Shown here: piece after piece, positions 1 to 63,400 of the stretch
Numbering within the stretch: the stretch's first letter is position 1
Layout: every line of letters begins with the position of its first letter
DNA from: Microvelia longipes
Lineage: Eukaryota > Arthropoda > Insecta > Hemiptera > Veliidae
Length of the DNA: 64,000 nt
Direction of reading: 5' to 3'
NCBI GenBank assembly: GCA_018340805.1
Contig: JACMZG010001913.1
Location: forward strand, 1,971,254-2,035,253
Program-made: the position numbers and the translations under genes
Notes under the pieces: generated by a model
What the model was told of the DNA's origin: nothing
The model's database searches: none
Seen by the model: the letters and a program-made list of their open reading frames with translations, nothing else

Positions 1-197
1 TGATTGCTTGAAAAGAGCATGAAAGGAACGATAGAAATCCACGGCTCTTCTGTCTAGATTAGATGAAATATACCTACACTTGAAATTAAAAGGAGTAGAA
101 CACTATCTTAGGGAGCTGGCAAAAAGGGCCCAACAACGTGGCTTACTTGCCTGGTAGTTACTAACTCTCCCCCCATATTACTACTACTACAGATAAT
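1..197 (+). mobile_element. 3' part of a tRNA-derived retroposon (copy 1 of 3)
   Basis: The sequence matches the 3' half of the retroposons at 12593-13396 (+) and 31215-31764 (-). Shared landmarks are the CACGGCTCTTCTGTCTAGAT block, the GGGAGCTGGCAAAA block and a tail of TAC repeats (about 176-192). The tRNA-like head lies left of the window, so the 5' end and target duplication cannot be seen. It ends in the same TAC microsatellite as the other two copies. Confidence 0.8.
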
Positions 198-667
198 GTC
201 TGTCACACCGCAGGTGCAGATAATTTTTAATATGAAGGTAAATAATGTAAGTATATTAAAACTTAATTAAGGAGTAATAAATAGAAAAGAAACCAGTATG
301 GATGAAGTTCAAAATTGAAATGAATAACGAATCATTGAAATGCAATGAGAGATAAAGCATTTTATCTCGATGAATAATTAAAACGGACAAGACTTTAAAT
401 TATTTTTCGCTATAGGTATAAACTTGCTGACGTCACAATTCCGATATAATATAAAGGGAATTTTCTTTGTCAACTAACTCCATTATCTTATAGGCTCCTT
501 GAAATAAAACCTAAAAAAGATAAACTACATCAACGAACTGACCGGAAATCTTCTAAAGCATTTCACAAATATTTCCCTTTATCCTTCCTTGTAAAAAGAT
601 TTTCATTATTAAAAAGTTTTTCTAAAACAAAATCTAGAAAAACTATTTTTCAAAAGAGTAAAGATCA
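198..667. other. AT-rich spacer, no gene seen
   Basis: No exon, RNA gene or repeat was recognised here. If COX4 exon 1 lies to the left, as its absence from the window implies, this is intron sequence. The last four bases, ATCA at 664-667, are the left target duplication of the 668-6484 element. Confidence 0.5.
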
Positions 668-689
668 CAGTAGGGGAAAAAGGAGCGTT

Positions 690-890
690 CTGGGACCGCC
701 TCCACCTCCACCTCCGCCTCCGCCTCCACCTCTACCTCCACCACCTCCACCTCCACCTCCACCTTCACCTCCACCACCTCCTCCTCCTCTTCTCCACCAC
801 CTCCACCACCACCTCCTCCACCACCACCTCCTCCACCACTACCTCCACCTCCACCACCACCTCCTCCACCACCACCTCCTCCACCTAACT
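690..890 (+). repeat. CCACCT low-complexity tract in the left arm
   Basis: Nearly pure CCACCT/CCACCA/CTCCTC triplet sequence just inside the left end. Its mirror is at 6285-6455. ORFs across it, giving runs of proline or glycine, are low-complexity artefacts. Confidence 0.85.
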
Positions 891-1164
891 CATAACCTTA
901 CACCTGTAACCACCTATAACCTCCCTTATCACCTTTCTTATTAACCTATATCCTTCCACCTGTAACCACCTATAACCTCTCTTATCAACCTATAACCTTC
1001 CACCTGTAACCACCAATAACCTTCCTTATAACCTCCCTTATCTATTAGCTCTGACTTCCCTTATGAGATATTACTTATTTCTAACAGGTTGTGACGTGTA
1101 ATTAATAGCTTAATAAAAATAAGGGTCCTGATAAGGACCGTCCTCAATATGAGAACATGGGAGT

Positions 1165-1222
1165 GTGCCTTTCTTAGTTTAAAGCCTTCCCACCACGTCA
1201 AGGTGAAGGCACATCGGGAAGG
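1165..1222 (-). ncRNA. HDV-like ribozyme candidate, left arm, outer copy
   Basis: Minus-strand counterpart of the motif at 5926-5983 with the same bases. P1 is CCTTCCC/GGGAAGG, P2 is GTGCCTT/AAGGCAC, P3 is ACC/GGT closing the 7-nt loop TTGACGT, and CTAAGA precedes the 3' strand of P2. Transcripts of the leftward gene (1952-2680) would run through it after the inner copy at 1421-1478. See 5926-5983 for the comparison with the family. Confidence 0.72.
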
Positions 1223-1420
1223 ATAGAGTTCGCCAATCATGTCTAGCCTTTAACTCATAAAATCCAACTGGACCAGCCAGTTGTTGAACCAAAGCACCTT
1301 CGATTACGAGTCAAAGACGCTAGCCACAGGACCAGCGGAACTCTCAGAATGTTATTGCACCTATTTCTACTTATAAGTTGTATACTGCTCGAATGCTGTT
1401 TATGCGATGACGTCACACTA

Positions 1421-1478
1421 ATGCCTTTCTTAGTTTAAAGCCTCCTCACCACGTCAAGGTGAAGGCATATCGAGGAGG
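1421..1478 (-). ncRNA. HDV-like ribozyme candidate, left arm, inner copy
   Basis: Minus-strand counterpart of 5670-5727. P1 is CCTCCTC/GAGGAGG and P2 is ATGCCTT/AAGGCAT, while the loop TTGACGT and the CTAAGA joining strand match the outer copy. Differences from the outer copy fall in paired positions and are compensated. Confidence 0.72.
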
Positions 1479-1501
1479 TTAATTTGGATATTTTTTTTAA
1501 T

Positions 1502-1528
1502 GTACAATGCCCCGACCTCGCATTGTAC
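1502..1528. other. 9-bp perfect hairpin, left arm
   Basis: GTACAATGC and GCATTGTAC pair around a 9-nt loop. It is present in both arms (mirror at 5621-5647) beside the inner ribozyme-like motif. Function unknown; it could be a transcription stop or a protein-binding site. Confidence 0.6.
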
Positions 1529-1800
1529 CATGGTGACCAGCCACTAAAAGTATGTCACCTCTGTTTTCACCGATATAATGAAACAATGTAATAATAAAAA
1601 CCATAATCCCAATATATACAACCCGAAAACACTATCCACCCTCCCCCTATTTAATATTTAAATAACTCTAAATAAGATGGTTTTGATTTTTTTTTTTTTT
1701 TTTTTTTAATATTTTTTTTTTTTTAATTTTTGTATTTTTTTTTTTTTTTATATTTTTTTTTAATAAATGCACAATCTGTTACTTATGAGAATTAGTTTAA

Positions 1801-1874
1801 GCGGTTTACGGGTCGCTATGCCTCGCCAGGGACCGCATTATGGGTTGCGGGTCGCTATGCCACGCCAGGACCCA
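1801..1874. other. tandem structured motif, left arm
   Basis: Two adjacent ~35-bp units share a GGGTCGCTATGCC core and are each closed by a 5-bp stem: GCGGT/ACCGC in one, TGGGT/ACCCA in the other. The mirror pair is at 5278-5352. The closing stems differ but both pair, which is the pattern expected of a conserved RNA or DNA hairpin. I do not recognise the family. Confidence 0.55.
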
Positions 1875-1951
1875 TTTCTAATTTCTTTTAGTTGAATTCC
1901 CATAAGTACCAAGGTGCTTAACCATTGAATGGTATTTGTTATAACCTTAAA

Positions 1952-2680
1952 TTACGTCATTTTATGTACTATACTTGTCAGTGGTTTGTACTGAACAAAT
2001 CTATCGTGTAACAATAGACAATACGCGGTAGTATTTGCCGGGAAATCTTTTTCAGATTCAAATTCTAATCTGACATCTACCGGTCCCTTTTTGATAGACT
2101 CTGATTGTTTCGAACAATCAATGATTACAACAGGACATTTATTCTTAAAATCTGTAAAGGATATGTACGGTAGACTCTGATAAGTGTTGTAGTACGACGT
2201 TTGAAACGCCGCGTACATGTGGTACAATAAAGCAAATTTTTTATTATGCTTATGAAGGGGGCAAGGCCTCCAGCTATAACTCAAGGAACTAATTTTGGGA
2301 CATTCTATCGCAAGTAAATCTAGAATGTCGCAATTATTTGGCAAATATTTTTTCAATAAACGTACTTTTCCTTTTACGACAAAGTGTGAGTACCGATTAG
2401 ATAAAAGTTTAAACACTAAATACAATCGCTCGTACTCAACATCACCGTCATCCCAGTTTATTCCGTGAAAATTTAATGTAAGCCAAGAATTTGTTTTCAT
2501 AGATTTAGAATCTTGAATGTAATTTGCAGGTGGTAAAAATAACCAGTTCGAAGACGATTTCGTCTCCAGGTCCAAACATGCGAGCTCTTTAACAATGACT
2601 TGCCCCTCATTATCGACAAACCCTTGAATATCTAAAATAGCGGTAGAAGGCATCTTGACTGCACGGAAGCCGAGATACAA
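1952..2680 (-). CDS. RNase H/exonuclease-like ORF fused to a capsid-like C-terminus
   Basis: An open frame of 242 codons. Residues 1 to ~146 (2680-2244) are unique to this side. They contain a DIQGF strand-like motif followed by KELA, a W-x-DGD segment and a V-KGK strand, a layout that recalls RNase H-fold 3'-5' exonuclease-like ORFs of mobile elements; this is family-level inference. Residues ~147-242 (2243-1952) lie in the inverted arm and match, in the same reading sense, the end of the capsid-like gene at about 4917-5203. The reading frame therefore crosses the palindrome boundary and joins two unrelated proteins. The true exonuclease C-terminus appears to have been replaced when the arm expanded. 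It starts 925 bp from the divergent gene, across the GAGCC minisatellite. The first part may still fold, but the fusion is probably a by-product. Confidence 0.6.
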   Translation of the reverse strand: MYLGFRAVKMPSTAILDIQGFVDNEGQVIVKELACLDLETKSSSNWLFLPPANYIQDSKSMKTNSWLTLNFHGINWDDGDVEYERLYLVFKLLSNRYSHFVVKGKVRLLKKYLPNNCDILDLLAIECPKISSLSYSWRPCPLHKHNKKFALLYHMYAAFQTSYYNTYQSLPYISFTDFKNKCPVVIIDCSKQSESIKKGPVDVRLEFESEKDFPANTTAYCLLLHDRFVQYKPLTSIVHKMT

Positions 2681-2726
2681 ATGGCCATATACCCTTATAT
2701 AATAAACTTATATATTCATCTTGTTG

Positions 2727-3531
2727 GAGCCGGTGTGGAGCCTATATGACCCCATTTAGAGCCGAGTAGGAGCCACTTTGGAGCCGATTTGGAGCCATCT
2801 AGAGCCTACATGAGCCATCTTGAGCCTATATGAGCCGAGTAGGAGCCACTTTGGAGCCGATTTGGAGCCATCTAGAGCCTACATGAGCCATCTTGAGCCT
2901 ATATGAGCCGAGTAGGAGCCACTTTGGAGCCGATTGGAGCCATCTAGAGCCTACATGAGCCATCTTGAGCCTATATGAGCCGAGTAGGAGCCACTTTGGA
3001 GCCGATTGGAGCCATCTAGAGCCTACATGCCATCTTGAGCCTATATGAGCCGAGTAGGAGCCACTTTGGAGCCTATATGAGCCATTTAGAGCCACTTTGG
3101 AGCCTATATGAGCCGAGTAGGAGCCACTTTGGAGCCTATATCGGAGCCATTTGGAGCCTATATCGGAGCCATTTAGAGCCGGTGTGGAGCCTATATGAGC
3201 CATCTAGAGCCGGTGTGGCCTATATGAGCCAATTAGAGCTTCATGACCGAGAGGAGACCTTTGGAGCCATTAAGAGCCGCTTTGGAGCCTATATGAGCCA
3301 TTTGGAGCTATATCGGAGCCATTTAAAGCCGGTGTGGAGCCTATATGAGCCAATTAGAGCCTACATGAGCCGAGTAGGAGCCGCTTTGGAGCTATTAAGA
3401 GCCGCTTTGGAGCCTATATGAGCCATTTGGAGCTATATCGGAGCCATTTAAAGCCGATTTGGAGCCTATATGAGCCAATTAGAGCCGCTTTGGAGCCTAT
3501 ATGAGCCAGGGTTGAGCCGCTTCAGTTTTTT
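2727..3531 (+). repeat. GAGCC minisatellite between the divergent genes
   Basis: About 800 bp of sequence in which GAGCC recurs every 10-15 bp. It is built from a ~70-bp higher-order unit (GAGTAGGAGCCACTTTGGAG ... GCCTACATGAGCCATCTTGA) repeated about four times and then decaying to the right. It fills the space where promoters for both divergent genes would lie. Open frames on both strands inside it are repeat artefacts. Confidence 0.9.
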
Positions 3532-3604
3532 TTAGCTTTCGTTTAGTATATATATAGAGCTAGTGGAGCTCCAACTTTAGTATTGAGCTAGACACCGAGC
3601 AGAG

Positions 3605-5203
3605 ATGTTCTCCAAGATACGTGATTCGAGCCTCTATAAGAAGAGATTTGAAAACTTGACATTTAGTTGTCCAGGCTGCTGTAAAAAGTTTGTACATAAA
3701 AAGAATTTACTTCGACACCAACGAGATAAACACTGTGAGGGGGTTGAACGCGAGGATGGTTCAGAGTTGGGATTCTACAAGGACGCCATTGCAGGTAAAC
3801 ATGATGAGTCAATTGAAGACAATAACTCTAGCGAGGCAGTATGTGGATCGGAAAAGGATAGAAAAGAAGAAGAAGACAATGAGGAGGATGAAGAAGATGA
3901 TGAAGAGGATGAATCTATTGATGGTGTAGTAAGTAACAAAGACATAGAAGAGCCAAAAATGATTGAGATGTTGAATTTAAGTGAACACCCCGAATATGAT
4001 GAATCTATAGAGAGTCTAGAGTATCATACTCACTATCCGTACGCAAACTCAAAGCTAGACGCCGGAGAAGAGATACGGATTCCGGTGCAATACCAAGACA
4101 TTTATACGCTTCCGAGTGAAAGTTTTATATATTTGGAACTATCATTTTTGAAAGAAGGAGGAAATACGGCACCGGCGAAGCACAGACTCATCAACAACGC
4201 ATTCCCGTTTTTATTCGACGAGATTCGGTATGAGATTTGTGGAGTAGAGATTGATAAAGTCAGAAACCCCGGAATGGCTTCGACTCTAAAAGGGATTGCA
4301 TCTCACGCGCCTATATCATATTCCTTAACAAATATGGGGTGGACAATTCCCTTTAATGAAGTACAAGAAGAATCATCCACCCGGTACAACGTCTGTCTAC
4401 CTTTATCCTCGTTACTCGGATTCGCGGAAGATTAAAAAAGTTTTGATAAACGTAAAGCAAGAGCTTATTTTGGTAAGAGCGAGAAACGATTCAAATTGCA
4501 TTGTACAGCACGTTCCGTACGCCGATACGGCTTCTCGGTCAGAAGTTCGCGAGAATGTTAAAATTGAACTGATATCGCTTTGTTGGAAAATACCTTACGT
4601 TTCGGTTAACGAAGTTCAGAAACTAAATTTAATTAATTATTTAAAAACAGAAAAAATAATTTCCCTCCATTTCCGAGCGTGGGATATGTACGAAGTACCC
4701 GCTATTGCCCTACGTCAAACCGACAAGTAATGGTCGATTAAAACTTCGACTCAACTCGAGAAACACGATTTTTTTTTAGCCTTTCAAAAGGGTAGAATAA
4801 CGTCATCGATAAGGCATCCAGTTGTTTCGATCACTGCGACTTGTCAAATGTCAAGCTTTATCTAAATTCACGAGTGTTTCCCTACGATGATTTAAATTTA
4901 AAATTCTCCCAAAATAAATTTGCTTTATTGTACCACATGTACGCGGCGTTTCAAAGTCGTACTACAACCACTTATCAGAGTCTACCGTACGTATCCTTAC
5001 AGATTTTAAGAATAAATGTCCTGTTGTAATCATTGATTGTTCGAAACAATCAGAGTCTATCAAAAAAGGGACCGGTAGATGTCAGATTAGAATTTGAATC
5101 TGAAAAAGATTTCCCGGCAAATACTACCGCGTATTGTCTATTGTTACACGATAGATTTGTTCAGTACAAACCACTGACAAGTATAGTACATAAAATGACG
5201 TAA
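3605..5203 (+). pseudogene. zinc-finger plus capsid-like protein gene, frameshifted
   Basis: Starts at ATG 3605. The first frame (to 4435) has a C2H2 zinc finger (C22, C25, H38, H43), a strongly acidic stretch around residues 90-107, and from about residue 140 a beta-rich region with NNAFPFLFDEIRYEI and VRNPGMASTLKG motifs. Such regions occur in uncharacterised arthropod proteins that I take to be jelly-roll capsid-like; that function is inference. The frame breaks at about 4433, continues in another frame to 4728, breaks again around 4730-4840, and remnants run to a stop at 5201-5203. At least three frame changes or stops make this copy non-coding as a whole. The last ~290 bp lie in the right arm and are duplicated in the leftward ORF. 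No repaired product is given here. Confidence 0.65.
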
Positions 5204-5277
5204 TTTAAGGTTAACAAATACCATTCAATGGTTAAGCACCTTGGTACTTATGGGAATTCAACTAAAAAAATTAAAAA

Positions 5278-5352
5278 TGGGTCCTGGCGTGGCATAGCGA
5301 CCCGCAAACCCATAATGCGGTCCCTGGCGAGGCATAGCGACCCGTAAACCGC
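5278..5352. other. tandem structured motif with compensatory stems, right arm
   Basis: Unit one (5278-5312) is closed by TGGGT/ACCCA, unit two (5317-5352) by GCGGT/ACCGC. Both share the interior CTGGCG, then T or A, then GGCATAGCGACCCG, followed by CAA or TAA. The closing pairs T-A and G-C in unit one become G-C and C-G in unit two, while the interior is nearly fixed. An inner GGCG / CGACC pairing with a bulged A is possible. It sits between the capsid-like stop and the first ribozyme-like motif. It matches no ribozyme or tRNA known to me. Confidence 0.55.
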
Positions 5353-5620
5353 TTAAACTAATTCTCATAAGTAACAGATTGTGCATTTATTAAAAAAAAT
5401 ATATAAAAAACAAAAAAAATATAAAAAATTAAAAAAAAAAAATATTAAAAAAAAAAAAAAAAAACAAAACCATCTTATTTAGAGTTATTTAAATATTAAA
5501 TAGGGGGAGGGTGGATGGTGTTTTCGGGTTGTAAATATTGGGATTATGGTTTTCATTATACATTGTTTCATTATTTCGGTGAAAACAGAGGTGACATACT
5601 TTTAGTGGCTGGTCACCATG

Positions 5621-5647
5621 GTACAATGCGAGGTCGGGGCATTGTAC
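5621..5647. other. 9-bp perfect hairpin, right arm
   Basis: GTACAATGC (5621-5629) pairs with GCATTGTAC (5639-5647) around GAGGTCGGG. Mirror of 1502-1528, and 22 bp before the inner ribozyme-like motif. Confidence 0.6.
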
Positions 5648-5669
5648 ATTAAAAAAATATCCAAATTAA

Positions 5670-5727
5670 CCTCCTCGATATGCCTTCACCTTGACGTGGT
5701 GAGGAGGCTTTAAACTAAGAAAGGCAT
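5670..5727 (+). ncRNA. HDV-like ribozyme candidate, right arm, inner copy
   Basis: Segments in order: P1 5' strand CCTCCTC (5670-5676), P2 5' strand ATGCCTT (5680-5686), P3 ACC (5688-5690), loop TTGACGT (5691-5697), P3' GGT (5698-5700), P1' GAGGAGG (5701-5707), a short joining segment without a clear P4, CTAAGA (5715-5720), and P2' AAGGCAT (5721-5727). The order P1-P2-P3-P3'-P1'-joining-P2' is the nested double pseudoknot of HDV-like ribozymes. Compared with the copy at 5926-5983, two P1 pairs and one P2 pair change in a compensated way. It lies 466 bp after the capsid-like stop, in the sense orientation. Confidence 0.75.
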
Positions 5728-5809
5728 TAGTGTGACGTCATCGCATAAACAGCATTCGAGCAGTATACAACTTATAAGTAGAAATAGGTGCAATAACATT
5801 CTGAGAGTT

Positions 5810-5883
5810 CCGCTGGTCCTGTGGCTAGCGTCTTTGACTCGTAATCGAAGGTGCTTTGGTTCAACAACTGGCTGGTCCAGTTG
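5810..5883 (+). other. tRNA-like arm between the two ribozyme-like motifs
   Basis: CTTTGA (5832-5837) and TCGAAG (5845-5850) form a 6-bp stem (one G-U pair) around the 7-nt loop CTCGTAA, which has the layout of an anticodon loop with T at position 33 and anticodon CGT. A box-A-like TGGCTAGCG lies upstream and a box-B-like GGTTCAACAAC downstream. The acceptor stem and T stem do not pair well, so this is at best a degenerate tRNA-like piece, and chance is possible. The mirror copy is in the left arm (about 1265-1338). Confidence 0.3.
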
Positions 5884-5925
5884 GATTTTATGAGTTAAAG
5901 GCTAGACATGATTGGCGAACTCTAT

Positions 5926-5983
5926 CCTTCCCGATGTGCCTTCACCTTGACGTGGTGGGAAGGCTTTAAACTAAGAAAGGCAC
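5926..5983 (+). ncRNA. HDV-like ribozyme candidate, right arm, outer copy
   Basis: P1 CCTTCCC (5926-5932) pairs with GGGAAGG (5957-5963). P2 GTGCCTT (5936-5942) pairs with AAGGCAC (5977-5983). P3 is ACC (5944-5946) with GGT (5954-5956), loop TTGACGT (5947-5953). The joining strand before P2' is CTAAGA (5971-5976). Family knowledge: HDV-like ribozymes have a 7-bp P1, a 3-bp P3 with a U-rich/CG-containing loop (UUCACGU in the mammalian CPEB3 ribozyme) and a catalytic C in a CUAAG- or CGAA-like J4/2. All of these are matched here. Oddities: the first base of P1 would be C rather than the usual G, and P4 is essentially absent. Predicted cleavage is just before 5926. Activity is inference. Confidence 0.75.
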
Positions 5984-6284
5984 ACTCCCATGTTCTCATA
6001 TTGAGGACGGTCCTTATCAGGACCCTTATTTTTATTAAGCTATTAATTACACGTCACAACCTGTTAGAAATAAGTAATATCTCTCATAAAGGATTGCGCC
6101 GGTTAGGGTAGTCAGAGCTAATAAGGAGGTTATAGATAAGGAAGGTTATAAGAAGGTTATTGGTGGTTACAGGTGGAAGGTTATAGTTGATAAGAGAGGT
6201 TATAGGTGTTACAGGTGGAAGGATATAGGTTAAAAAAAGGTGATAAGGGAGGTTATAGGTGGTTACAGGTGTAAGGTTATGAGT

Positions 6285-6455
6285 TAGGTGGAGGGTGGTG
6301 GTGAGGAGGTGGTGGTGGAGGTGGAGGTGGTGGTGGAGGAGTGGTGGTGGAGTGGTGGAGAGAGGAGGAGGAGGTGGTGGAGGTGGAGGTGGAGGTGGAG
6401 GTGGAGGGAGGTGGAGGTGGAGGCGGAGGCGGAGGTGGAGGTGGAGGTGGAGGCG
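6285..6455 (+). repeat. GGAGGT low-complexity tract in the right arm
   Basis: Nearly pure GGAGGT/GGTGGT triplet sequence just inside the right end, the mirror of 690-890 but of different length. Its ORFs are repeat artefacts. Confidence 0.85.
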
Positions 6456-6687
6456 GTCCCAGAACGCTCCTTTTTCCCCTACTGATCACGAAAAAGAAAA
6501 TCAATGGGTTTTGCTGCAGGTGAAACAAAGAAAACTGTGAAAATGTTTGAAGTTTTAGATTTTCTCTGTTAGATTGTTTGCTAAAAGTAGTGTAAGGGAC
6601 CTGTTTTGTAATGCCTTACATTTCTTAAGTGCTTTTGCAAGATTTTGTGCCCATGTAATTCCTTATATAATTTGAAAAGACGTGTTT

Positions 6688-6956
6688 ATTATAAAAGACA
6701 TCTATTGGCCGGACATTTTCACTTCTTAAGGAATTGTTAGGCATAATATGGATCACTTTAGGGTCACTCCAGTGGTTTACATTACTAGAAGTCCTCAAGA
6801 TTTGTGCGCTAAAATTAGGAACCCTTCAAAGCCCAGAAAATAACTTTTTATACTTCACGAGTGGTTTTTCCAATATTTTGTGTCCACATAGACGACATGA
6901 TCTACATCGATATCTCGTGGATATAATAATGTCCGGGCAATAGATGTGTGTTATAA
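6688..6956. mobile_element. small inverted-repeat element (MITE-like)
   Basis: TATTGGCCGGACATT (6704-6718) and AATGTCCGGGCAATA (6929-6943) are imperfect inverted copies set inside TTATAAAAGACATC and GATGTGTGTTATAA flanks. The intervening ~210 bp has no ORF of note. A second TATTGGCTGGATATT lies just outside at 6965, suggesting a further fragment of the same family. Confidence 0.55.
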
Positions 6957-7190
6957 AACACACCTATTGGCTGGATATTTACGGTCTTTGAATTTGACCG
7001 TAGCAGCGCCGGCGTCACTGATAATCAATCATTGGCGAAAGAGAAATAAATAACTACAATAAATTCGTAATTAATTTATCATAACTAAAGGGTGATCAAC
7101 GTTGTAATGTAAACATAGGTTTCTTAGTTTTTTCTTATTCTTAATGATTTACCTTTCAATTTTTTTCAATTCTAGGGTGTTTAAAAGTCA

Positions 7191-7467
7191 TAGACCAAGA
7201 GCCCAGGGGAGTTTTGTTAAAAAAAAGTGTAATGGCTGGAACCGGTCTCAATTTTTCGTAAATACCTTCCTGAACAAGGATCTGCAATTCTGCCGACTCG
7301 TATCGGATGTGTGTCCCAGGCAGAACGCACTTTAGGAACAAAAGGTTCTGCCTGGGACACCATCCGATACGAGTCGGCAGAATTGGCAGATCCTTGTTCA
7401 GGAAGGTATTTACGAAAAATTATTAATACGCTTTTTATTAACAAAACACCCCTGGGCTCTTGGTCTA
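7191..7467. mobile_element. foldback element with ~130-bp arms
   Basis: Arms at about 7191-7325 and 7338-7467 are near-perfect inverted copies, from TAGACCAAGAGCCCAGGGG outside to CGTATCGGATG and CCCAGGCAGAAC near the centre, with a loop of about a dozen bases. ORFs on both strands are mirror artefacts of the palindrome. A long hairpin RNA would form if it were transcribed as part of a COX4 intron. Confidence 0.85.
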
Positions 7468-7880
7468 TATTGTCACGGGTTTTTTTTTAAATTAACTGAT
7501 AAGATGATATTTTCGAACCTTCGTGTTTTATTTAATTTTAATGAAATAAAACATAAAAAATTAAATTTTTAAATAATTTAAATATTTCATATTTATTATT
7601 AAACCAATATTTCAATCACAGTTTAATATAAAACCGTGTTTTATAATTATATCGGTAAATACCAGCATAAAAAACCGAACAAACCCAAGTCTGTAGTGAT
7701 AATAGCCTGATTATATACTTAATATCGGGAATAATCGAAGTATTGAAAGTATCGATGTATGAAATATTGACAATTTGTTCAGCTCCGATGGTCGTTCTAT
7801 TAATTTTTAACTCATTTATTACAAATTAAGTAACAATAAAAAGAAATTAATGTATAATTTCGATCGACTCCCATGCTAAT

Positions 7881-8203
7881 CATAGAGATATATTACTAGA
7901 AACGTATAGCCTATCTCAATACATTGAGAGGCCTCAAACATCATTTTGGGGCTCTCAGGAGCTCTAGTTAACCTTATTGAAACCTCCTCCGAGCTTAAGC
8001 TAAGGTTATAATAAATCAATTGGTTTTTTGTTTCCCGCACATCTCATGTATTTTTATATGCATTTTAAACGTTCTATAATATAAGTTACTGTAATTTTGT
8101 TTTGTTTATTTGATTATATTGGTAGTCAAAGGTAGAGTCAGGTTATTTTATCGATGTTTCAAAATTCAATCAATAGGGCCCCTCTAGTAATAATATCTCT
8201 ATG
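7881..8203. mobile_element. hAT-type MITE, copy 1 (family CATAGAGATAT)
   Basis: Ends CATAGAGATATATTACTAGA and, inverted, CATAGAGATATTATTACTAG. The interior carries GGGGCTCTCAGGAGCTCT and a TTATAATAAATCAATTG block shared with the copies at 14291, 18333, 18673, 25515 and 54494. At about 320 bp with no coding capacity it is a classic MITE. The family is assigned to hAT because the copy at 18673 has a perfect 8-bp target duplication. Confidence 0.85.
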
Positions 8204-8433
8204 ACGCGCTAATGATATGATAAAAAAATTATCAACCTTTTGTTTTCCCGCCATTGGTATTGCCAACCTTACTACTATCTCTTTGAATCATGAATAAATT
8301 CATGTGCAAAATCTTCAACCCATCACTCCGTGTTTCAGATAAATTTGGTTTCACCATGAGTTGTATGTTGACTTAGTTCTTGGAAGTCATTGACTAATAC
8401 AGCTAATTTTTCGACACCACTTTTTATTTATAG

Positions 8434-33217: not shown

Positions 33218-56874
<23,657 letters not shown>

Positions 56875-58644: not shown

Positions 58645-61600
58645 TCATCTATAATGATTCCTAGTATTTAGTATCAGATACTTGATATATTTTTCCACAT
58701 GTTTGGTTGCAATCACTATTATCACAATTTGGATTATGTACATAAATGAAGCTACTTTCTCTACAACTTGTTCTCTTACTGATAGAAAAGCATAGATAAT
58801 TTGATTTTTACAATTCAAAAATAAATAATTCTCTAAAAGCCAGTTAGTAATTATTTTCATACAGTTTTCAGCTCTTTCGAGAGCTTCGGCCCAACTACTG
58901 GCCTTAACTACTATACGAGTATCATCTGCATATGATATAATATTACCAGTAATATTTAAACTATAAATGCTATTTATGTAAACTATAAAAAGTATGGGCC
59001 CCAGCACACTACCTTGGGGTACTCCATGCATGACAGGTTTATAAGAACTGAGTTTTTTGTTAATTTTGACTCTCTGATATCTATCAGTAAGGTAAGAAGC
59101 AAGTAGATTATAAGTATTACCAGTAAGTCCAAATTCTTTAAGTTATCTAATAATATTAAGTGATTAATACAGTCAAAAGCTTTTTTGAGATCTAAGAATA
59201 TGCTTAAACATTTTTCGTTATCATCGAGAGAAGTATAGTACAGTGTACCGCTTCTCTCTCTTACACTTATTAATATTGTAATGTATAATTAATAGTAAAT
59301 TTCCGAGTTTTATTATATTTAAATTTTCGCGCTTTTGATAACCGTGGTATATAACCTTTCAGTTTTAAAAATTTAGTTTATCCATTTGTCTAAATTAAGA
59401 TTTACTTTTAAACTTTTTTTTTTCAAATTTTGTACAGTTTATTGTAAAAATTTTTGGATGCTTAATTAATTCTTTTTAGAGTTTCCTATTTAGTTTTTTT
59501 TCCATTTTGAGTTAGTTCAAGTTTAATTAAAGTTTCTTTTTGCCACGTATCAGCTTCCTGAGGTGGTACTGTGAGTTTTTTCCAAGGTTTCCGTTGAAGA
59601 CGAATTTCGTCTCGTTCTTTTTACGCCAGCCTTCTCCAGCACGATCACAGTAACATTTTCACTTCTTTATTTTTTTTGTCAATTTTTGTTATTTTTTCTT
59701 TAAAAAAAGTAAACATTAAATAATAAATTGTCGCCATCCAAGTCATTATGGAGTTAGTAAATGTTTTGCATTTTTGTAATAAAAAGACCTGGGGTTTTTC
59801 ACGATTTCATCACATGTAAGTGAACATTTTGTCTTGTTAGTTCAGTTATTTTTCAATTAAATTCTATTTTAACATCCAAAATTCTTTAATATTTGATTCT
59901 TATAGTTTTTCGACATTTGATTTGTTATAGATGAGTTAGCTTGATTTATAAAAATATTGAGATTTGTTCTACTGGACGCCTTAATGATTTTCATGGTTAT
60001 GGTAAGTCCAAATTTCAAATTTTTTTTGAATCACGTGGTAATTTTTGGCTATATTAATCTTATTTGATTTTAATTCTTTTCTTTGCTTTGTTTGTTCTCA
60101 GATTTGAGCTTAATTACTTACGTTCTAATTACTTTCGTTTTTTTCAATTCCTTTATTTAATTAACGTTTCATTAAATTAAATAACTTAGAACCAAATATC
60201 GGTCGGTTCAATTTGAAAAATTTTCTTAACCTTACCATGTTGTAGCAACACGCGTCGATTTTTAAACTTTGACAAAAAGAATTTTTCTTATAATCCCTCA
60301 GATTTATTTGATTGTAAAGCCTGTGATGTAAAATGATAAATTGCTTAATTTATTAATGCATTGTTTTAAAAATTTATTTAATTAATAGACTCCGATAAAT
60401 TTTACTTTGTTCTCTTTATTTGTCTTTACCTGTGTTATTCTTACCTCATACGCCACCCTCTCAATTCTATTTTGAGTCTGATGCTATCTTGGAGCTACTT
60501 TATGTACTAGTATCCTTAAATATTCATGAGCTAGAGAGAGGGTCGCCGTAATAGATTTGACTAGTTAGGTGAAAAATGCATCTTGAGTACTTAGTTGCTA
60601 CGGAAACCAAATTGATTATTGGATAAAATGTTATTATTTTCTAAATGTAACATTAGTTGAGCTTTAATGCATTTTCAAAAACTTTAGATAAATGTGGTAA
60701 TAGGGAGATTGGTCTATAGTTTTCTGCCAACTTATCATTTCCCGTTTTATAGATTGGAATAACAATTGCAGTTTTAAATAGATGAGGAAAAATTCCTTTA
60801 TTCAAGCAGAGATTGAAAATATGGACCATAGGCTTAGCTATACTGTTGTTAATTGCTTTGAGTAATCTTGCATTTAGATTGTCATCACCCGGAGCAGAAT
60901 CATTTGGTATCTCAGAAATAAATTTTGAAATATCAGATTCCTTAATGATACTAAACTTAAAGTTATGTTTAGGGATAGATTTGCTTTTTTGTTTATTAAC
61001 TGAATTTAGATTTGTTTTTTCAGATTTTAAAATATTGTCTACAACACCTGAGAAATATTCATTAAAGTGATCAGCAATGTCTTTATGATTGGTTAGGATA
61101 TTTGAGCCGTTTGATATTTGTTTTATACTTTTGTTAGGGGAAGATATACAAGCTATGTCCTTAGTAACTTTCCATATTTGTTTACTATCGGCATTTTCTA
61201 ATTTTTTGTTGTAATAGTTTTGTTTAGCAGTTCTTATGAGTTTTTGAAGAGTTTTTCGATACTGAATATATCTATTTTTAAAAAATTCAAATAAAGGAAG
61301 GTTTTGTATATTGGTTTTCATTTTTTTGTATATATTATTTCTAGTTTTAATGGCTGAAATCAAGCCATTTGAAATCCAGGGTTTTAGTTTTTTCCATTTT
61401 TTTTTTGTTTTTTAGTATGGCTAGAAGTATTTTTCAAAATATGTACATTAAGTGTTTCATAAAATTTTTCAAGAGCTAAATTAGGGTCAGTTTCGTTGTA
61501 TACAAGGTGCCAATTTTCATTTTCAACTGATGATTTTAAATTTCATAGTTTATAACATCATTTACAATAGTTTCATTTTGTTCAGTTTGTGCATGACTTT

Positions 61601-62355
61601 TACCTAAAAATAAATTTTGCCCAAATACAGTTAAGAAGTGATCTGTCATATAATTTTCAAAAGTAGCTGATGTTATATCAGAGTATGATAGTGAGCGGTA
61701 GAAAATATGATCTAGGCATGATTTACTTTAGATGAATTGAGTCGGAGTGTTAATTAATGACACAAATCCATTTGAATTAAATTATTGATATATTTCTGTT
61801 TTTGATGAGCAGCTCTCCGATCCGAGAAGGTTGATATTTATATCTCCAATAACAAAAGCATGATCAGACTCCAGGTTCTTTAGACGTAAAAAGTTGCTTA
61901 GTTGATTATTAAAATGTTGTACCTTTAAAGATGGAGATCGGTAACATGCTAAAATTATGAAACTTTGATCCTTAATAAGAAATTTGACAGTAGCTGAGTT
62001 GCAAGCAGATATATAAGTACATTCCTCAACTTCAATATTTGATAAAGTATTTGTGTTAGTATATATTGACACCGTCATAGGATGTGTTTTTTGAGACTAG
62101 AGAAAACGTTTTGTAGCCTTCTATGTCGTATATGGTAGTTTCTGACTTCAAATGAGTTTCGGTTAAAATGATAATATCAGGTTTAAAGCTTAGATTGTTG
62201 ACTAGTACAAGGAATTCATCAAAATTAGTATTGATACCTCGGATATTTTGATGTATAAAGGTGACGTTGTGCTCTTTAAATGCACTGTTGAGAGCATCGA
62301 GGTCCTTGTATATAAAGTTACTAAAAGTATTAATACTTTCGTTTAAGAGATCCAT
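58645..62355 (-). pseudogene. CR1/Jockey-type ORF2 (endonuclease-RT), fragmented
   Basis: Endonuclease pieces: 62355-62056 (FIHQNIRGINTNFDEF, ILTETHLKSE) and 62078-61782 (CYRSPS, VIGDININLLG). RT pieces: 61363-60653 (NDSAPGDDNLNARLLK, TAIVIPIYKTGNDKLAENYR, ISLLPHLSKVFEN), then NQFGFR near 60600, FLDLKKAFDCINH near 59190, and HGVPQGSVLGPILFIVYIN with YADD at 58932-58921. Several frame changes and the insertion after NQFGFR rule out function. Confidence 0.85.
59240..60540. mobile_element. unidentified ~1.3 kb insertion inside LINE ORF2
   Basis: In an intact element, about 100 bp would separate NQFGFR from FLDLKKAFD; here the gap is ~1.4 kb. The inserted DNA is AT-rich with no ORF of note. CTCTCTCT lies near one edge and AGAGAGAG near the other, but I could not fix ends or a target duplication. 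A solo LTR or a non-autonomous DNA element are both possible. Confidence 0.5.
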
Positions 62356-62395
62356 AAGTTAAGATAAAAAAGATAGTTTAATGGCGATAGTAAGA

Positions 62396-63385
62396 TTAAG
62401 CGTGCGTCGATTTGGGCACACCAAGCCTAGTTATGTCAGATTGGTTTCTTATTCTTATTGCACGAGCTCCTTCTTCTTTCCTCACATATACTGAACCTTG
62501 TTTAGTCCAAAAATGTATATAGCCAAGTGGTTTAAGGGTTGATTTGGTCAACCATAACAAATGTTTAGTATCCATTGTGAGTTCTTCGCCAATATAGACT
62601 GTTTGCTTGTTTTTTGTACCGAGGCCTAAATTCTCGGTAGTCACCATGATGTTTTTTTTGTTGTACAGAAGTTGATTTTTGTGTTCTACATTAAAGAACT
62701 CAATAATGATTAGAGGATCCTTGGGATCGCTGTTATTTCTCTGATTTTTCCTATATGATGTTTTGATGTGTTGTTCGAGATCTGACGAATTTAATTGATT
62801 CAATAATTTACTTACGATTTTATTAAGATCTTCATCCTCTTTTTGCGGGACGCCTCTAACTTCGATGTTATTCACTATTAAGTTTTGTTCTAGTCTGTTC
62901 ACTCGAGTTAAAACCCCATTCACTTTTTTATCCACTTCCGTTACGTGTACCTTTATTTTCGTATTTTCTTCAATAACCTCATCAACTTTTATTTTTTGAT
63001 CATCAAACTTATCCGATATGTAGTTTTGAGACATTATAACTTGATTTAAAGCTCGCATGATGTCTTTGTTGCTCGGATTTTCTGTGTTAAGCTCTGATTC
63101 AGCAAGGTTAGATTTGCACTTTTCGTGGTTAGAATCTTGCTTTGATGGTTTCGTATTTGTTTTTTCTATTGAAACATTTTCTTTATAAGGTATACATTTT
63201 GGACAGAGATATTTCGCCCTTTCTTTTTTCCCGTTATCAGAAAGATAGAGAATTACTGTAGAACGATCTAAATTTCCACAACTCATTGCATGTATCCATG
63301 ACGCACATGGTCCGGTGCACAGTATTTGATACGCGTTTTTACCAATTTTTTTATCACAGACGCCACAAATTATTGTTTTACTCAT
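62396..63385 (-). CDS. CR1/Jockey-type LINE ORF1 protein, open frame
   Basis: 329 residues. A PHD-like zinc finger at residues ~8-64 (CGVCDKKIG, C-x-GPCASWIHAMSC, CPKC), then a Lys/Glu/Asn-rich linker, a coiled coil at about 110-165 (DKKVNGVLTRVNRLEQN) and a C-terminal domain (NNIEVRGVPQKEDEDL ... GYIHFWTKQGSVYVR) of the type found after coiled coils in insect LINE ORF1s. It binds element RNA in the usual model. The open frame is intact although ORF2 is not. Confidence 0.75.
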   Translation of the reverse strand: MSKTIICGVCDKKIGKNAYQILCTGPCASWIHAMSCGNLDRSTVILYLSDNGKKERAKYLCPKCIPYKENVSIEKTNTKPSKQDSNHEKCKSNLAESELNTENPSNKDIMRALNQVIMSQNYISDKFDDQKIKVDEVIEENTKIKVHVTEVDKKVNGVLTRVNRLEQNLIVNNIEVRGVPQKEDEDLNKIVSKLLNQLNSSDLEQHIKTSYRKNQRNNSDPKDPLIIIEFFNVEHKNQLLYNKKNIMVTTENLGLGTKNKQTVYIGEELTMDTKHLLWLTKSTLKPLGYIHFWTKQGSVYVRKEEGARAIRIRNQSDITRLGVPKSTHA

Positions 63386-63400
63386 AATTTAATAGTTTAA

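Follow-up and report, generated by a model that had tools for sequence, protein, structure and literature searches.

Minimal HDV-like and theta ribozymes are known from Caudoviricetes, where, in the available portion of the report, they lie behind tRNAs of gut phages, the published minimal HDV-like forms have no P4, and the cleavage-site nucleotide is G1 (PMC10879173). In R2 and L1Tc/ingi non-LTR retrotransposons, an HDV-like ribozyme frees the 5' end of the element RNA, as stated in the accessible parts of three sources (PMC4035085, PMC3414825, PMC7761336). A literature search, outside which most subscription journals lie, returned no work joining HDV-like ribozymes with Polintons or Mavericks. 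A query pairing HDV-like ribozymes with DNA transposons led, judging by titles, to R2-type elements; the word 'ribozyme' is absent from the main text of an article on double-jelly-roll (DJR) viruses (PMC11071308), and the accessible parts of PMC7761336 and PMC4908430 carry no report of a Polinton ribozyme.

The window analyzed here is a 64,000-nucleotide stretch of a Microvelia longipes contig (JACMZG010001913.1, positions 1,971,254 to 2,035,253) and carries four motifs of this general kind in the inverted arms of a DNA element (Table 1). Like the Caudoviricetes ribozymes, as the available portion of PMC10879173 describes them, the motifs and their relatives show a nested pseudoknot, an absent or small P4, a catalytic C in J4/2, a length of 55–60 nt, and occurrence in viral DNA genomes. 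They differ from those forms in a C1-G pair at the cut, an L3 of UUGACG, and a P1.1 of G-C plus U.U, in having a hairpin or an mRNA 3' region as upstream neighbor, and in hosts that include a eukaryotic transposon. With the ribozymes of non-LTR retrotransposons, as covered by the accessible parts of PMC4035085, PMC3414825, and PMC7761336, they share an HDV fold inside a mobile element, but they are located 3' of a capsid gene and in both arms of a DNA element.

The original prediction of four 58-nt motifs with an HDV-like fold was confirmed at the exact positions claimed, and the nested pseudoknot P1-P2-P3-P1'-P2' is present with 17 of 17 pairs formed in each window copy (P1 7, P2 7, P3 3). 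Allowing up to 2 mismatches, the window contains 4 instances of the core CACCTTGACGTGGTG, where dinucleotide shuffles predict 0.03. In HDV notation, the motif runs P1 (7 bp), J1/2 (2–3 nt), P2 (7–8 bp, with 8 bp in the outer copy), a single C, P3 (ACC/GGT), L3 UUGACGU, P1', CUUUAAACUAAGA, and P2'. P3 is best taken as three base pairs preceded by the one unpaired C, and the J4/2 catalytic C is present in the CUAAG strand. Canonical P1.1 of HDV-like ribozymes consists of two pairs, and a purine, usually G, is typical at +1. In the window copies, P1.1 comprises one G-C pair and a U.U opposition, P4 is missing, and +1 is a C paired with G; because C1 is not a purine, they are filed as a variant of the HDV-like class.

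No Rfam family was found at gathering score on the copies; the best sub-threshold match, HDV-F-prausnitzii (RF02682), covers the inner copy at 17.8 bits (cut-off 44, E 0.65), with the P3/L3 string CACCUnnACGUGGUG and the CUAAGA strand aligned, whereas the family consensus has G1 and P4. At gathering score, Rfam finds no HDV family in six loci holding purine-1 relatives either, so its miss for the window copies says little.

Table 1. Features of the element and its surroundings; positions are those of the window.
Feature	Position	Strand	Basis or remark
Target duplication GATCAC, left copy	663..668		6 bp
Whole element, assigned to the non-autonomous Polintons	669..6483		ends AGTAGGGG...CCCCTACT
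Outer ribozyme motif, left arm	1165..1222	-	pseudoknot descriptor
Rod-like hairpin, left-arm mirror	1225..1344	-	identical inverted arms
Inner ribozyme motif, left arm	1421..1478	-	pseudoknot descriptor
Left-arm outward open frame	1952..2680	-	end matches DJR positions 217-316; start resembles the relatives' partner ORF (MPSTA[I]LDIQGF...)
Open frame, C2H2-like N-terminus (below Pfam cut-off) and DJR positions 3-83	3605..4435	+	gene broken in window copy
Open frame, DJR positions 84-164	4356..4730	+	
DJR positions 185-316	4766..5161 (contig 1976019-1976414)	+	stops inside
A-rich stretch in putative 3' UTR	5385..5470	+	79% A
9-bp hairpin GTACAATGC-GAGGTCGGG-GCATTGTAC	5621..5647	+	sequence; 22 nt before inner cut
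Inner ribozyme motif, right arm	5670..5727	+	expected cut 5669/5670
Rod-like long hairpin	5804..5923	+	folding; ends 2 nt before outer cut
Outer ribozyme motif, right arm	5926..5983	+	expected cut 5925/5926
Target duplication GATCAC, right copy	6484..6489		6 bp

The inner and outer copies of one arm differ at 6 of 58 sites, which make up three compensated pairs and nothing else. These are the two changes in P1 and one in P2 that had been claimed (pairs 4-35, 6-33, and 11-58). The chance that six random sites form three complete pairs is 1.7e-5, with restoration of pairing not yet demanded. The left and right arms are 100% complementary over 433 nt, so the mirror copies give no independent covariation. 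A loose pseudoknot descriptor also returns AT-rich chance matches elsewhere in the window, making it unspecific by itself.

Copies were collected from the genome with a profile of P1 and P3 pairs from which the P2 pairs were left out, yielding 102 matches in 67 sources with overlaps counted, of which 23 are distinct. Covariation among such homologous copies, proposed as a test of the fold, was borne out in three of five measures. Under the full pseudoknot, 97.6% of cells pair in the 23 copies, against 93.6% in shuffles; 24 cells are changed on both sides, against 8.2 in shuffles (0 of 500 as high) and 0–3 in slid structures; and the covariation score stands at 0.202, compared with 0.126 in shuffles, none of 500 attaining it. 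The other two measures are not striking: double changes affect 5 of 17 pairs, which 28 of 500 shuffles reach, and there are 11 further pair types, which 428 of 500 reach. P2, absent from the search profile, still pairs in 96.1% of cells. A chance pseudoknot is ruled out by the shuffle expectation, the three compensated pairs, and the genomic covariation together. Judged from sequence, the motifs almost certainly adopt the HDV fold and are very likely catalytic.

The predicted setting, within arms of a virus-like DNA element and downstream of genes that read outwards, also held, and the element can be named from its sequence features as a non-autonomous Polinton. The target duplication of Polintons is 6 bp, and a 6-bp duplication was present in all six elements in which both ends were found, among 13 loci examined. 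The window copy retains broken pieces of a double-jelly-roll gene (PF21738). A relative, L155, encodes in order a Pox_A32-type ATPase, an rve plus chromodomain integrase, and a DJR protein (E 8.6e-114), followed by the ribozyme. With the inverted arms and the 6-bp duplication, this makes a Polinton gene set; the RVE integrase, the FtsK/A32-like ATPase, and the double-jelly-roll capsid gene that the accessible part of PMC4028283 gives for Polintons/Mavericks all have their likeness in the ribozyme-bearing L155. A search by sequence returned no solved structures for the DJR protein, and no relatives of the left-arm protein were found in IMG/VR. The partner frame begins MPSTAIIDIQGF in relatives (e.g., L153:4698-5222), and Pfam gives no match for the L153 copy. 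A long degenerate GAGCC-type repeat (window positions 2720-3520) lies between the start points of both outward frames. The same genome holds a second DJR lineage, L162 and L163, where the descriptor found no HDV-like motif even with L3 left free; L163 has a Pox_A32-type ATPase. Elsewhere in the window, open frames at 42051-43973, 45204-49552, and 58645-63388 appear by eye to be pieces of non-LTR retrotransposons, and a near-perfect inverted repeat around 7263-7440 (region 7250-7440) may, again by eye, be a small foldback element.

The exact core occurs 307 times in the 664.6-Mb genome, and its reversed control does not occur at all. The first 100 cores listed, out of 307, fall into 59 clusters, 28 of which hold both strands, and 27 of these 28 face outwards. 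The opposed cores of these outward-facing clusters lie 1.7–7.1 kb apart, with one exception at 13.3 kb, and 9 of 13 same-strand neighbors among these first 100 cores are 256–263 nt apart. PF21738 has 130 scored matches in the genome, of which 114 were typed and merged to 113 places. For the best 20 of these 113 places, 3.5 kb surrounding the 3' end was examined, and in 16 an intact sense ribozyme starts 453–1589 nt beyond the DJR match; the ribozymes of L172 and L175 are damaged or chimeric, and none is found in L182 or L183. On contigs with all cores listed, an exact sense core lies within 3 kb of 20 of 29 DJR places and an antisense core near none of the 29. The arrangement of two ribozymes per side stood for one subfamily and not elsewhere: 4 of the 16 intact cases have two, 11 have a single ribozyme, and in L180 just the inner one is seen. 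Among the 59 clusters drawn from the first 100 cores, 29 have a DJR place within 6 kb and 30 have no scored DJR match; the latter may represent solitary arms, copies in decay, or candidates that went unscored. Chimeric ribozymes that join an inner P1 5' strand to an outer P1 3' strand occur at L164:9025-9082, L164:7880-7936 (L139, L140, L175), and L138, and their sequences look as if they arose by recombination between tandem ribozymes.

Relatives in viral contigs were sought in IMG/VR with a pattern that fixed P3/L3, the two bases after P1', and CTAAG, leaving the letters of P1 and P2 free beyond the inner P3 pairs. Counts of distinct matches exclude same-context duplicates and matches at most 40 nt from a locus end (31 reduced to 21, 24 to 19, and 23 to 18 in the searches that follow). 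The fixed-L3 pattern matched 24 stretches in IMG/VR and, over the viral loci then collected, 21 distinct sequences; P1 is perfect in 18 and both P1 and P2 in 16, against permuted means of 1.5 for P1 and 2.2 for P2. All 16 matches with both helices start with a C paired to G. Replacing the catalytic C of the pattern by A, G, or T, a control that follows an idea in the available portion of PMC10879173, left both helices in 0 of 19 distinct matches, compared with 16 of 21 with the C. Three matches without the catalytic C kept P1; two of them, L195 and L204, seem real by eye, with a C in a CTAAT strand, and are counted in the 19. The catalytic C sits in the CUAAG strand, and the helices of the viral matches go with that C.

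With two L3 letters freed, the pattern matched 23 stretches and 18 distinct sequences, 11 of them with both helices; seven of these begin with G1, two with A1, and two with C1, the C1 pair being the ones with UUG. Across loci L001-L118, the descriptor identified 22 distinct C1 and 12 distinct G1/A1 examples, and L3 reads UUGACG[U/C] in 22/22 of the former and 0/12 of the latter; since most of the C1 examples were retrieved with UUGACG patterns, their share among ribozymes is not a frequency. P4 is present in L017 and L067, both of which carry several C1 ribozymes in a row. These comparisons define a candidate C1 subclass with C1-G at the cut, L3 UUGACG[U/C], P1.1 of G-C plus U.U, and often no P4, in which C1 and the missing P4 are regular features and not defects of the window copies. 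The subclass was not met in the literature searched, which leaves most subscription journals aside, and may be in print.

Viral C1 ribozymes lie mostly between genes of IMG/VR contigs. For 25 of them, L188 and L193 included, the neighboring frame is on the ribozyme's own strand in 21 cases upstream and 22 downstream. In the related contigs L101, L105, L107, L114, and L118, the upstream frame has 548–550 codons, and it matches a major head protein in L101 and L118, the two tested. PHROGs phage proteins were found in L118, L101, L073, L026, L014, and L099, and the single protein tested from L047 had no PHROGs match. The strand CUUUAAACUAAGA is letter-identical in the window, L101, and L118. A 15-mer scan of IMG/VR gave 78 loci with seven convincing ribozymes, the rest being apparently chance, and the L3 variant UUGACGC gave nine stretches, with L188 adding two C1 ribozymes, one of them with UUGACGU. 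Searches of GenBank phages by DNA similarity produced one C1 case, L193, and nothing similar to L073; the P4-less C1 pattern had 0 matches in a bacterial and archaeal genome collection. In L014, a pistol ribozyme (62.5 bits, 3979-4043) lies about 285 nt upstream of the C1 HDV-like ribozyme (4328-4379).

A further distinguishing feature of these ribozymes is what stands upstream of the cut. In most of the listed copies of the single-ribozyme Polinton subfamily, a 9-bp hairpin, GTACAGTGC-loop-GCACTGTAC, stops 1 nt short of C1; the short hairpin of the window is its counterpart, with one compensated pair between them. The rod ahead of the outer ribozyme lies in a segment (5800-5925) that folds at -50.1 kcal/mol (z -4.54, 0 of 200 shuffles as low). 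Among viral C1 ribozymes, an uninterrupted stem of at least 6 bp ending 0–2 nt before the cut occurs in 15 of 22, compared with 3.5% of random windows from the same loci, and the remaining 7 fail this strict test. G1/A1 ribozymes pass it in 1 of 12 cases, against 4.4% of random windows, and instead have a tRNA or tmRNA ending at the cut in 10 of 11 checked (L082 left out; the exception is L096). Stems before C1 and tRNAs or tmRNAs before G1/A1 indicate that one subclass would cut behind tRNAs and the other behind hairpins. An earlier test based on minimum free energy found hairpins in 19 of 22 viral C1 cases and in 38% of random windows too, and was replaced by the strict one.

Theta ribozymes cut at the 3' end of a tRNA, and window positions 1-8000 contain no tRNA. 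ARAGORN found no tRNA adjoining the C1 ribozymes in seven C1 loci, and Rfam found no adjacent tRNA in 11 viral C1 loci. A CTCGTAA loop hinted at a tRNA ahead of the outer ribozyme, but this candidate was rejected: ARAGORN reports no tRNA there, and the whole stretch forms a single rod. In L086, and equally in L088 and L089, a G1 HDV-like ribozyme (5871-5942) directly follows a tmRNA (5476-5870); theta-type processing may extend to phage tmRNA. L086 also contains a GOLLD RNA at 7898-8381.

Several alternative roles can be considered for these motifs. They could keep the HDV fold and cut too slowly or not at all, functioning as a structured RNA that blocks exonucleases, binds protein, or signals packaging. 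C1 in place of a purine, the absence of P4, and a P1.1 with a single Watson-Crick pair would all suit such a role, yet 16 of 21 distinct viral matches that have the catalytic C form both helices, as against 0 of 19 lacking it, and P4-less theta-type relatives cut in vitro according to the available portion of PMC10879173, making a non-cutting RNA unlikely. The repeats might instead work as DNA, whether as arms, replication origin, or integrase sites, with the RNA fold a side effect, which would fit a DNA element whose inverted arms carry them. This is made highly improbable by the compensated changes in mutually crossing helices, by the placement behind a gene in sense only, by the dependence on the catalytic C, and by viral contigs that lack such arms yet show the fold between their genes.

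Other alternatives accept cleavage and differ on which product matters. The ribozyme could serve the downstream RNA by giving it a protected 5'-OH end, whether this is outer-arm RNA or the next gene of a phage; the start codon that follows is 7–50 nt away from several viral C1 ribozymes, and the L073 ribozyme lies just before AAGGAG. We regard this as distinctly unlikely, given that the conserved neighbor is the upstream hairpin and that no long gene-like frame was seen from the ribozyme to the Polinton end. The two ribozymes of an arm could also excise a 256-nt RNA (5670-5925) with the rod at its end, which may circularize as in retrozymes. The nine same-strand neighbor pairs with ribozymes 256–263 nt apart, the fold of this product (z -3.1 as a whole and -4.5 for the rod), and the several C1 ribozymes in a row in L017 and L067 are consistent with excision, but only one ribozyme is present in 11 of the 16 intact cases downstream of a capsid gene, which leaves excision with very little probability.

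The reading we prefer is that a hairpin-plus-ribozyme module, minimal, P4-less, and with C1-G, probably cleaves transcripts that run outwards, at a point 3' of the capsid gene; on balance, we favor a part for it in 3'-side processing of Polinton mRNAs. Cleavage, 3'-end formation, and a benefit to the element are inferred here from computed properties, namely sequence, covariation, sense position, hairpin adjacency, and catalytic-C dependence. The ribozymes lie in the inverted arms, in sense orientation, behind the outward DJR gene and behind the opposite outward frame. Upon outward transcription of an arm, the ribozyme would cut just 5' of C1, which in the single-ribozyme subfamily would be 1 nt behind the 9-bp hairpin and in the window's subfamily, for the outer cut, 2 nt behind the long rod. 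The upstream product would be an mRNA whose 3' end carries a stem-loop and a 2',3'-cyclic phosphate some way past an encoded A-rich tract, and the cut would free this mRNA from read-through into host DNA. In viral contigs, the hairpin-ribozyme unit would be used between genes. All 16 intact Polinton cases contain a 60-nt window with an A fraction of 0.67–0.97, 71–207 nt before the cut. All 16 also have AATAAA between gene and ribozyme, so ordinary polyadenylation may compete or act first. Counted against the preferred reading are the C at +1 where a purine is expected, the distance of the window's short hairpin from the inner cut (22 nt, not 1 nt), the 4 of 20 best DJR matches without an intact ribozyme, the 30 of 59 clusters without a scored DJR match within 6 kb, the 7 of 22 viral C1 cases that fail the strict stem test, and the two covariation measures that are not striking.

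A broader proposal, which is possible though doubtful, is that the hairpin-coupled C1 HDV ribozyme is a transferable 3'-end module for viral mRNAs. In Polintons it might yield capsid mRNAs that end in a stem-loop, carry an A-rich tract encoded by the template, and need no poly(A) addition; in tailed phages it might split operons behind structural genes. Common ancestry, or transfer between viruses of bacteria and those of eukaryotes, would link the two uses. The C1 subclass, which has a P1.1 and an upstream neighbor of its own, constitutes a testable exception to the G1 described at HDV-like cuts. Self-cleaving ribozymes of mobile elements belong, in the literature surveyed, to retrotransposons and circular RNAs. 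Here, a DNA-virus-like transposon family seems to carry the ribozyme as a regular component, located behind the capsid gene and with hundreds of core copies in one genome. If it cuts, Polintons can form mRNA 3' ends without host polyadenylation.
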